The notes below the pieces were generated by a model. That model searched no databases, was not told the DNA's origin, and saw only the letters and a list, made by a program, of their open reading frames with translations. Below, piece by piece: positions 2,504-19,348 of a stretch of DNA of 64,000 nucleotides; position 1 is the first letter of the stretch; each line of letters starts with the position of its first letter. Source of the stretch: Hyphomicrobiales bacterium. Its GTDB lineage: Bacteria; Pseudomonadota; Alphaproteobacteria; Rhizobiales; Rhizobiaceae. The stretch spans positions 1 through 64,000 of the forward strand of contig UCKS01000010.1 of NCBI GenBank assembly GCA_900473045.1. Direction: 5' to 3'. Made by a program: the position numbers and the translations under genes.

Positions 2504-3340
2504 ATGGCATTGAAAAGTTTCAATCCGACCACCCCGAGCCAGCGCCAGCTGGTCATCGTCGACCGGTCCGGCCTGCACAAGGGCAAGCCCGTCAAGTCGC
2601 TGACCGAAGGCCTGTCCTCCAAGGGCGGCCGCAACAACACTGGCCGCATCACCGTGCGTTACCAGGGTGGCGGTCACAAGCGGACCTACCGCCTGATCGA
2701 CTTCAAGCGTCGCAAGTTCGACGTTGAAGGCACGGTCGAGCGTCTGGAATACGACCCGAACCGCACGGCGTTCATCGCGCTGATCAACTATGCGGACGGC
2801 CAGCAGGCTTACATCATCGCTCCGCAGCGTCTTGCTGCCGGCGACAAGGTGATCGCCTCGGAAAAGCAGGTTGACGTGAAGCCAGGCAACACCATGCCGC
2901 TTCAGTACATGCCGGTTGGTTCGATCGTTCACAACGTCGAGATGAAGCCAGGCAAGGGCGGTCAGATCGCTCGCTCCGCTGGCGCCTATGTTCAGCTGGT
3001 CGGTCGCGACCAGGGCATGGCGATCCTTCGCCTGTCGTCTGGCGAACAGCGCCTGGTGCACGGCTCCTGCCTTGCAACGGTCGGTGCAGTCTCCAACCCT
3101 GACCACGGCAACATCAACGACGGCAAGGCCGGTCGTTCGGTGTGGCGTGGCAAGCGTCCGCACGTTCGCGGCGTCGTCATGAACCCTGTTGACCATCCGC
3201 ACGGCGGTGGTGAAGGCCGCACCTCGGGTGGCCGTCATCCGGTTTCGCCTTGGGGTAAGCCCACCAAGGGCAAGCGTACGCGCTCGAACAAGTCGACAGA
3301 CAAGTTCATCATGCGCTCGCGTCATCAGCGTAAGAAGTAA
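2504..3340 (+). CDS. rplB: 50S ribosomal protein L2
   Basis: The full-length 278-residue L2 carries the highly conserved [15 protein letters not shown] segment near residues 225-239; the His in this region lies close to the peptidyl transferase centre. L2 is needed for subunit joining. GAGG precedes the ATG, 11 bases after rplW. Confidence 0.98.
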
Positions 3341-3355
3341 GAGAGGAAGTCTCCA

Positions 3356-3634
3356 ATGACTCGTTCAGTATGGAAAGGTCCGTTTGTTGACGGCTATCTT
3401 CTCAAGAAGGCTGAGAAGGTTCGTGAAGGCGGCCGCAACGAAGTGATCAAGATGTGGAGCCGTCGCTCCACCATCCTGCCGCAGTTCGTCGGTCTCACGT
3501 TCGGCGTCTACAACGGCAGCAAGCATGTTCCGGTCAGTGTCAACGAAGACATGATCGGTCACAAGTTCGGTGAATTCTCTCCGACCCGGACCTATTACGG
3601 TCACGGTGCGGACAAGAAGGCAAAGAGGAAGTAA
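3356..3634 (+). CDS. rpsS: 30S ribosomal protein S19
   Basis: A 92-residue S19 ([20 protein letters not shown]) with the conserved [17 protein letters not shown]-terminal part. It forms a complex with S13 in the 30S head near the A site. AGAGGAAG lies upstream of the ATG, and only two bases separate its stop from rplV. Confidence 0.98.
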
Positions 3635-3636
3635 TT

Positions 3637-4026
3637 ATGGGCAAGGCAAAAGCCGAACGCCGGCTGAAGGATAACGAGGCGCAGGCAATCGCGCGCACGA
3701 TCCGCGTCAGCCCCCAGAAGCTCAACCTGGTGGCTGCGATGATCCGCGGCAAGAAGGTCGACCGGGCTCTGGCCGAACTCGAGTTCTCGCGCAAGCGGAT
3801 CTCGGACACTGTCAAGAAGACGTTGGAATCTGCGATCGCAAACGCAGAGAACAACCACGATCTCGACGTCGACAGCCTGATCGTTGCCGAAGCTTACGTT
3901 GGCAAGTCCATCGTCATGAAGCGTTTCCACGCTCGTGGCCGTGGCCGTGCATCGCGCATCGAAAAGCCTTTCGCGCATCTGACGATCGTTGTTCGCGAAG
4001 TCGAAGCTAAAGGGGAGGCCGCATAA
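3637..4026 (+). CDS. rplV: 50S ribosomal protein L22
   Basis: A 129-residue L22 with the long beta-hairpin ([21 protein letters not shown]) that narrows the exit tunnel and is a known site of macrolide-resistance changes. The stop and the rpsC start share one base (TAATG). Confidence 0.98.
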
Positions 4027-18346: not shown

Positions 18347-18724
18347 CTATTCGGGAATCTTGAAAAATGCCTCAAGGCGATAGCCGTCGGGATCGACGAG
18401 AAAGCCGGCATAATAGAACTGGCTGTATTCCGGCCGCAGGCCCGGCACCCCGTTGTCTTCACCGCCGTTTGACATGCCGGCTGCGTGGAAGGCATCGACT
18501 GCAGCGGCATCGGGCGCGATAAAGCAGAAATGCAGGCCGGAACTCCGGTCGGCGGGTACGGGGCTTTCGACCTTGGCGATCCACAGGCTGATCCGGTCCG
18601 AACCATAACCAATCACCGTATCCGTTTTCGACAGCCGCTCGTAACCGAGCGGCGTCAGGATGGCATCGTAGAAACGCAGCGAACGATCGAGGTCTTTTAC
18701 GCCAATCGACACATGGTCAAACAT
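18347..18724 (-). CDS. VOC (glyoxalase-fold) family protein
   Basis: A 125-residue single-module vicinal-oxygen-chelate protein: MFDHVSIGVKDLDRSLRFYDAILTPLGYERL at the N-terminus and YAGFLVDPDGYRLEAFFK at the C-terminus, the two halves of the usual beta-alpha-beta-beta-beta repeat. His4 and the C-terminal Glu are likely metal ligands. Substrate cannot be told from sequence. It is convergent with rarA, 22 bases apart. Confidence 0.85.
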   Translation of the reverse strand: MFDHVSIGVKDLDRSLRFYDAILTPLGYERLSKTDTVIGYGSDRISLWIAKVESPVPADRSSGLHFCFIAPDAAAVDAFHAAGMSNGGEDNGVPGLRPEYSQFYYAGFLVDPDGYRLEAFFKIPE

Positions 18725-18858: not shown

Positions 18859-18887
18859 TTGTCACCGCCGAAGCGGGATGGCATAGA
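18859..18887 (+). promoter_or_regulatory. Promoter for the riboswitch-gdx transcript
   Basis: TTGTCA (18859-18864) and CATAGA (18882-18887) are exactly 17 bases apart. Transcription would start near 18894, directly at the first stem of the putative guanidine-II element, which supports both predictions. Confidence 0.5.
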
Positions 18888-18894
18888 GTGCCTA

Positions 18895-18959
18895 TGCAGA
18901 CGGCTGCACGGGATGGGCATTGATCGCCCAGCCCCGAACATCCGCGAGGACGGCCTCGC
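18895..18959 (+). promoter_or_regulatory. Guanidine-II (mini-ykkC) riboswitch
   Basis: Two short stem-loops each carry the diagnostic ACGG tetraloop: TGCAG-ACGG-CTGCA (18895-18908) and GCGAGG-ACGG-CCTCGC (18944-18959). They are separated by a 35-base linker. Twin hairpins with ACGR loops are the defining feature of the mini-ykkC class, which binds guanidinium. The second hairpin ends nine bases before the CGGAG ribosome-binding site of a SugE/Gdx-type exporter, the classic downstream gene. Probable action is translational: ligand binding exposes the ribosome-binding site. Confidence 0.85.
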
Positions 18960-18979
18960 TCCTTGAGACGGAGACAGTG

Positions 18980-19294
18980 ATGGCCTGGATGATCCTTTTC
19001 CTTGCAGGAATTCTTGAGATCGGTTGGGCGATCGGCCTGAAATACACCGAGGGTTTTACCAGGATTCTGCCGACGGTCCTGACCGGTGCCTCGATGGTGG
19101 CGAGCGTCGTTCTGTTGGGCATCGCCGTGCGCACATTGCCGCTCGGAACGGCCTATGCCGTCTGGACCGGCATCGGCACGGTGGGGACGGTGATCCTGGG
19201 CATCCTGCTGTTTGCCGAACCTGCAACGGCTGTTCGGATCGGCTGTATCGCGCTGATCATAGCCGGCATCGCCGGGCTGAAGCTGACCGCCTGA
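18980..19294 (+). CDS. gdx: Guanidinium exporter of the small multidrug resistance family
   Basis: A 104-residue, four-helix SMR protein starting MAWMILFLAGILEIGWAIGLKYTEGFTR. Residues known to form the guanidinium site of Gdx proteins are present at the same positions: Glu13, Trp16, Ser42, Tyr59 and Trp62. Such proteins work as antiparallel dimers exchanging guanidinium for protons; older databases call them SugE, a quaternary ammonium pump. CGGAG lies 6 bases before the ATG. The upstream guanidine-II element supports guanidinium as the physiological substrate. Confidence 0.93.
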   Translation: MAWMILFLAGILEIGWAIGLKYTEGFTRILPTVLTGASMVASVVLLGIAVRTLPLGTAYAVWTGIGTVGTVILGILLFAEPATAVRIGCIALIIAGIAGLKLTA

Positions 19295-19310
19295 AAATTA
19301 CGCTGAATTG

Positions 19311-19348
19311 AAAACACCCCCGTGCAGAGCGCTGCTCGGGGGTGTTTT
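19311..19348. terminator. Bidirectional terminator between gdx and the ATP12 gene
   Basis: AAAACACCCCCG (19311-19322) and CGGGGGTGTTTT (19337-19348) form a perfect 12-bp stem with a T-run on either strand, so it can end both convergent transcripts. Confidence 0.85.

Follow-up and report, generated by a model that had tools for sequence, protein, structure and literature searches.

A probable guanidine-II riboswitch with a conserved linker stem upstream of a predicted Gdx exporter gene in Rhizobiaceae

A small exporter gene of a Hyphomicrobiales bacterium (Rhizobiaceae) is preceded by two hairpins with ACGG loops that are separated by an unusually structured linker. The locus raises the question whether this leader is a guanidine-II riboswitch and what part the linker plays in it. 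The window analysed here is the whole stretch of 64,000 nucleotides of contig UCKS01000010.1 that contains the locus. Published guanidine-II riboswitches, cited throughout from the available parts of the articles, are described as translational ON switches with the anti-Shine-Dalgarno (anti-SD) sequence carried by the linker (PMC9094411, PMC9300104). The linker itself is described as flexible and 7-40 nt long (PMC7544219), in most cases 13 nt or longer (PMC5486947).

The gdx gene is a single plus-strand gene located between a glyoxalase-fold gene and an ATP12 chaperone gene. The features of the locus (18859-19348) and of its neighbours are the following:

18347-18724, minus strand: glyoxalase-fold gene, divergent from gdx
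18859..18887, plus strand: promoter candidate TTGTCA-17-CATAGA (boxes TTGTCA 18859-18864 and CATAGA 18882-18887), from the sequence and its conserved position
18895..18908, plus strand: P1 hairpin TGCAG-ACGG-CTGCA with A-U as the second pair, from relatives and covariation
18909-18943, plus strand: linker between P1 and P2, 35 nt, by direct reading
18909..18936, plus strand: linker stem CGGG.TGGGC / GCCCA..CCCG directly abutting P1 (fold z -3.0; 0 of 300 shuffles as low; covarying across relatives)
18937..18943, plus strand: tail AACATCC, 7 nt, from the linker stem to P2 (6-9 nt long in 34 of 37 A-U-P1-type leaders)
18944..18959, plus strand: P2 hairpin GCGAGG-ACGG-CCTCGC, from the sequence and relatives
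18959..18962, plus strand: anti-SD candidate CTCC at the foot of P2 (37/37 A-U-P1-type leaders against 15/91 others)
18970..18973, plus strand: Shine-Dalgarno (SD) sequence GGAG, from the sequence
18980..19294, plus strand: gdx (sugE), predicted SMR guanidinium exporter of 104 aa, from protein comparison
19311..19348, plus strand: inverted repeat AAAACACCCCCG/CGGGGGTGTTTT, possible terminator common to gdx and the convergent ATP12 gene, read from the sequence
from 19376, minus strand: ATP12 chaperone gene, convergent with gdx

The two hairpins and the 35-base linker were found by direct reading exactly where the first-pass annotation had placed them. The third stem, lying within the linker, had been overlooked in it, and the ribosome-binding site, placed there nine bases after P2, is 10 bases away when counted from P2 to GGAG. 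A pair of ACGR hairpins was unique in the 64 kb, both strands being scanned with at least 4 pairs per stem and a linker of 3-45 nt. The chance expectation in order-1 Markov sequence was 0.10 pairs per strand, and with stems of at least 5 pairs none appeared in 60 such runs. The leader thus presents two GC-rich hairpins with ACGR tetraloops, a linker whose 35 nt fall within the 7-40 nt of the class, and the ribosome-binding site of gdx near P2, all of which are features of guanidine-II riboswitches. The inverted repeat behind gdx was not called by the terminator pattern scan, which has a loop limit of 8.

The promoter TTGTCA-17-CATAGA had also been proposed in the first-pass annotation. The boxes are present and their position is conserved: in 29 of the 37 A-U-P1-type leaders the best match to the two boxes shows a spacer of 17 bases and begins 36-40 nt before the P1 core (a count without shuffled control). 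A generic sigma-70 scan, however, called no promoter at the window leader, so the proposal depends on where the boxes lie and on their conservation. In many leaders of the type, among them L011, L020, L036, L091, L092, L107 and L155, a possible operator, a palindrome like GGCATGGCAGCCATGCC, lies immediately before the -35 box; the mean palindrome score before this box in A-U-P1-type leaders was 4.78, compared with 2.33 in base shuffles. An upstream operator was dropped for the window, where no such palindrome was found.

The protein encoded by gdx was colinear over 103 residues (E 1.6e-31) with 6wk5, which we take to be Gdx-Clo (database record: SMR multidrug protein). The alignment confirmed the presence of Glu13, Trp16, Ser42, Tyr59 and Trp62, the residues named earlier as typical of Gdx; the window protein is a diverged homologue of Gdx-Clo which keeps the central Glu13 and the polar stack residues. 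The roles of these residues in the SMR-Gdx site are described in the available text of PMC9574504. The nearest proteins belong to a Rhizobiales isolate, Sinorhizobium medicae and Ensifer adhaerens, and the window Gdx clusters with them in the tree, from which the source is taken to be Rhizobiaceae. An annotation as sugE and a drug pump had been foreseen, and the NCBIfam SugE equivalog model, named for quaternary ammonium efflux, was indeed passed with 127.5 bits against a cut-off of 126. Judged from family membership, guanidinium would be both the ligand of the leader and the substrate of the exporter.

The expected match to the guanidine-II covariance model was not obtained. RF01068 gave no window match at its cut-off of 32 bits, and in a small search with E up to 10 it recognised only P2, with 13.3 bits. 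The window shares this behaviour with its closest relatives. Leaders in which the second pair of P1 is A-U (the A-U-P1 type, 37 leaders) were compared with those in which it is G-C (the ordinary type, 88 distinct leaders). The cut-off was reached by none of the 30 A-U-P1-type leaders scanned directly (the window, nine loci and twenty loci), the best score among the nine named loci being 29.7 bits. In a filtered whole-genome search, compared by eye, an over-cut-off match at gdx was found in none of 28 family members of the type. By comparison, 14 of 20 ordinary-P1 leaders chosen for this purpose passed. The A-U-P1 type differs from the ordinary one in P1, which is mostly GCAG-ACGR-CUGC, and in the linker, either of which may lower the score. 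RF01068 was dropped as the sole arbiter since relatives with plain hairpin pairs also score below its cut-off. The miss is the curated score of one model, and it weakens the case for RF01068 membership while leaving untouched the proposal that the leader works like a guanidine-II riboswitch. Because the whole A-U-P1 type lies below the cut-off where scanned, more weight was given to the ACGR loops of the relatives in judging the identity of the window.

For this comparison, 80 loci of named records (wider relatives) and 110 family leaders (30 loci and 80 stretches, out of 142 rows) were used. Paired ACGR hairpins were present before gdx in at least 77 of the 110 family leaders and at least 51 of the 80 wider relatives, both counts being lower bounds of a scan that allows no mismatch. 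Single hairpins were found in 12 and 6 leaders, respectively, and the mismatch-free scan detected no hairpin in 21 and 23. The 33 family leaders without a pair in the scan include L168 and L172, which are nevertheless matched by the subtype model described below, and 13 SMR leaders (L184-L189, L192-L198) with proteins of 53-58% identity to the window Gdx. The conservation of ACGR loops in related strains was thereby borne out. Relatives share with the window both ACGR loops and their closing G-C pairs, the placement ahead of the ribosome-binding site and gdx itself, and a guanidine-II riboswitch with a Gdx exporter, as first proposed, is the best reading of the locus.

The element that is new at this locus is the covarying linker stem; the remainder of the finding is mostly ordinary. 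In the A-U-P1 type the linkers are 19-40 nt long and their mean energy was -8.8 kcal/mol (n=37). Leaders of Bradyrhizobium, Devosia, Chelativorans and others with the ordinary P1 resemble the window in gdx, in the two hairpins and in a similar distance to the start codon, whereas their P1 is GG-ACGR-CC and their linkers have means of 18.5 nt and -1.9 kcal/mol over 88 distinct leaders. In 35 of the 37 A-U-P1-type leaders the linker folds into a stem of less than -3 kcal/mol. In 34 of them it begins 0-1 nt past P1 and stops 6-9 nt short of P2; the 35th stem is that of L093. In the same folding L190 and L191 showed the A-U pair of P1 without a linker stem.

Taken singly, many linkers do not stand out (mean z -2.09; 22 of 37 beat their shuffles at p < 0.05 and 15 do not), and the case for the stem therefore rests on covariation and geometry. 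The modest z values and the 15 failing linkers, together with a G-C type that is mostly without the stem, would suit a guanidine-II riboswitch in which the linker stem is unselected, a passive spacer or relic that arises because long linkers rich in G and C fold back on themselves. This is unlikely in view of the linker helix in the model-fitted alignment A2 (38 rows, with L058, L190 and L191 included), where two-sided changes occurred at 7 of 7 pairs and 84.3% of the cells were paired. The covariation score of the whole structure in A2 was 0.443 against 0.136 for shuffled alignments, and none of 500 shuffles scored as high. The pair counts share the bias of a structure-fitted alignment, of which the chimera test is free: when the 3' halves of linkers were exchanged the pairing was lost, folding becoming weaker on average, from -10.2 in native linkers to -5.09 (sd 0.40), with -6.39 as the lowest value in 300 runs. 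The geometry is also fixed on both sides of the stem despite the varying sequence and length of the linkers. A linker stem conserved as part of the riboswitch is accordingly the preferred reading.

Two further alternatives concern the ligand. Both loops of the window are ACGG, and this combination was found in 21 of the 37 A-U-P1-type leaders, followed by ACGA/ACGG in 14 and ACGA/ACGA in 2; among all leaders with a pair, ACGG/ACGG accounts for 24 of 77 in the family and 7 of 51 in the wider relatives. In the available text of PMC9300104, G in both loops is rated rare and the ACGA loop is the stronger site. Together with the A-U second pair of P1, these loops could mean that the variant P1 has changed its ligand, for example to an alkyl- or amino-guanidine, with an exporter to match. 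This is nonetheless very improbable since neither loop departs from the published ACGR consensus and the gene, with its guanidinium-site residues, is an ordinary Gdx. The structured linker may, as a guess, compensate for the weaker ACGG/ACGG loops. The older idea about mini-ykkC, suggested by its small repeated hairpins (PMC2864571), is that the hairpins bind a protein and not guanidinium. It is hardly credible here, as later papers report that such hairpins bind guanidinium directly and give crystal structures of them (PMC5486947), and both the ACGR loop letters and the closing G-C pairs are kept in the window.

From sequence comparison, the conserved covarying linker stem defines a putative guanidine-II subtype that lies below the cut-off of the standard model. 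The window has its proposed features, namely the A-U pair of P1, the abutting stem, the 6-9 nt tail and the CTC(C/T/A) foot of P2. A hold-out model of 20 leaders, from which the own-genus L088, L090 and L091 were left out and in which named loci such as L008 and L009 were kept irrespective of their GTDB genus, found the window with 60.0 bits (E 1.3e-10). On 25 loci of other kinds its top score was 40.8 bits with L096, L095 being the next, and neither has a linker stem; L058, with a G-C pair in P1, was also scored near 40 bits by a subtype model. Because these stemless and G-C-P1 leaders score there, values of about 40 bits do not tell the subtype.

The first subtype model, built from 23 sequences with the window included, matched 30 of 247 family genomes, from 13 of 109 genera, at one place per genome and always just before gdx. 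Among the 30 are G169 and G229, which are the stemless L096 and L095 and score near 40 bits here as well, and G215 and G153, which are L168 and L172. In the latter two, from another genus (g70), the P1 core is GCAGACGGCTGC, an inverted repeat directly adjoins it and P2 is imperfect; their scores were 45.4 and 35.2 bits. In an order-wide search the model matched 3 of 297 genomes, all of the same family, as determined with a filter by which weak matches may be lost. In the tree of 109 Gdx proteins the A-U-P1 type requires 6 changes compared with 26.5 when shuffled, and the subtype seems to be a lineage trait found in part of the family, passed on along with gdx and lost at times. The gdx leaders L014, L053 and L128 have no P1-P2 pair; L053 and L128 end in what seems to be the remnant of a P2, and L014 has a single, dissimilar ACGG hairpin. 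As L014 and L053 fall in a Rhizobium clade with good support that is otherwise of the A-U-P1 type, the switch was probably lost in them while gdx was kept.

A published linker hairpin or rhizobial guanidine-II RNA was not found in the literature covered, outside of which lie figures and most subscription papers; PMC12335538, a consensus update of 2025 of which a part was available, may show variable linkers in a figure. The leader resembles the guanidine-II riboswitches of the E. coli sugE/gdx type (mini-ykkC, RF01068) in its two GC-rich ACGR-loop hairpins before the ribosome-binding site of a Gdx gene and in its presumed action as a translational ON switch. It differs from them in the A-U second pair of P1, in the anti-SD candidate at the foot of P2 and in scoring below the RF01068 cut-off. 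Where the published linker is flexible and carries the anti-SD (PMC7544219, PMC9094411, PMC9300104), the window has a conserved linker stem and a 7-nt tail.

It is highly likely that gdx is controlled by a translational ON riboswitch of the guanidine-II class that includes the covarying linker stem; its ligand response, its direction of switching and the role of the stem are what we infer. Transcription would start near P1. Without guanidinium, the 3' arm and the foot of P2 (GGCCUCGCUCC) would pair with GGAG and AUGGCC and translation would be held down. With guanidinium bound, one per loop and, as is usual for the class, cooperatively, P1 and P2 would form a kissing complex in which P2 stays folded and the start site is free, and the Gdx exporter would then remove guanidinium, as expected of SMR-Gdx proteins in exchange for H+. 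The linker stem probably stacks on P1 and absorbs the extra linker length, so that the short tether of 7-8 nt alone would span the kissing complex, by which pairing within one RNA molecule would be favoured. The anti-SD would act from the 3' side of P2 and not from the linker as in the published models.

The placement of the anti-SD is consistent with the distribution of SD complements. A CTCC, CTCT, TCCT or CTCA between the P2 end and position +6 was present in all 37 A-U-P1-type leaders and in 15 of 91 ordinary ones, whereas inside the linker an anti-SD 4-mer was equally frequent in both types (15 of 37 and 37 of 91); none was found in the window linker. The tail is near-constant at 7-8 nt, 7 nt being the lower end of the published linker lengths. 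The two states are close in computed energy (medians 0.9 and 1.3 kcal/mol), as a switch needs. In the 37 leaders the openness of the SD was 0.30 with P2 formed and 0.18 with P2 blocked, and it was more open in 29 of them; the corresponding values for the window were 0.297 and 0.266. With 88 ordinary leaders (0.29 against 0.30) there was no gain and the published mechanism was not recovered. In the minimum-energy folds at least 3 nt of the SD were paired in 27 of 37 ON and 29 of 37 OFF states. Folding energies were rejected as proof of the switch, since they do not settle the matter for the window and fare no better with ordinary leaders; as model results they weakly support an OFF/ON switch. 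Since the gain in openness is modest and absent in the ordinary type, the ON direction is taken from the guanidine-II class and not from the calculation.

Tentatively, the linker stem may act as a scaffold by which kissing is kept within one molecule, with P1 and the stem stacked into a single coaxial rod and the tail of 7-8 nt serving as the shortest spanning tether; we regard this role as possible rather than probable. If true, ACGG/ACGG loop pairs would be workable, the linker would belong to the aptamer with the expression platform on the 3' side of P2, and structural studies would have a well-suited guanidine-II RNA that is both natural and of full length.

Other guanidine-II sites were observed in the same genome, on contig C26. 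The strongest RF01068 match of the genome, 45.2 bits at 1569-1615 (L001, L211), precedes a Ca2+/H+ antiporter-like gene (PF01699). That gene adjoins an extra gene for ATP synthase F0 subunit a (PF00119; atpB), an order repeated in L210. The extra gene (3036-3782, L204), 64% identical to the other copy of the genome, is itself preceded at 2843-2885 by a canonical guanidine-II riboswitch (36.1 bits with RF01068). The hairpin pair before the atpB paralogue was found at 7 of 7 loci (L204-L210), all of which were chosen for their RF01068 match, and in L205 a Gdx-like SMR gene (55%) directly follows the extra atpB. One idea is a spare a-subunit that tolerates guanidinium; no link between a guanidine-II riboswitch and an extra atpB was found in the accessible portions of the literature. 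A short frame of 38 codons with a GTG start (L204 217-333, C26 2916-3032) sits some 30 nt past P2, between this second switch and the extra atpB, so the L204 switch may control a leader peptide to which atpB is coupled.

Whether P1 and P2 pair within one RNA or between molecules is the question in the title of PMC7544219. Dimers and larger species have been observed (PMC9300104), and an intrastrand kissing state is described for the E. coli RNA (PMC9094411), as far as the available text of these articles goes. A natural variant with a structured linker makes the question of intra- versus intermolecular kissing more directly testable. In the leaders examined from Sinorhizobium/Ensifer and Rhizobium, this gdx riboswitch is missed by the curated model, and guanidine control of gdx is therefore under-annotated in these soil and nodule bacteria, in which gdx is labelled as a quaternary-ammonium pump.
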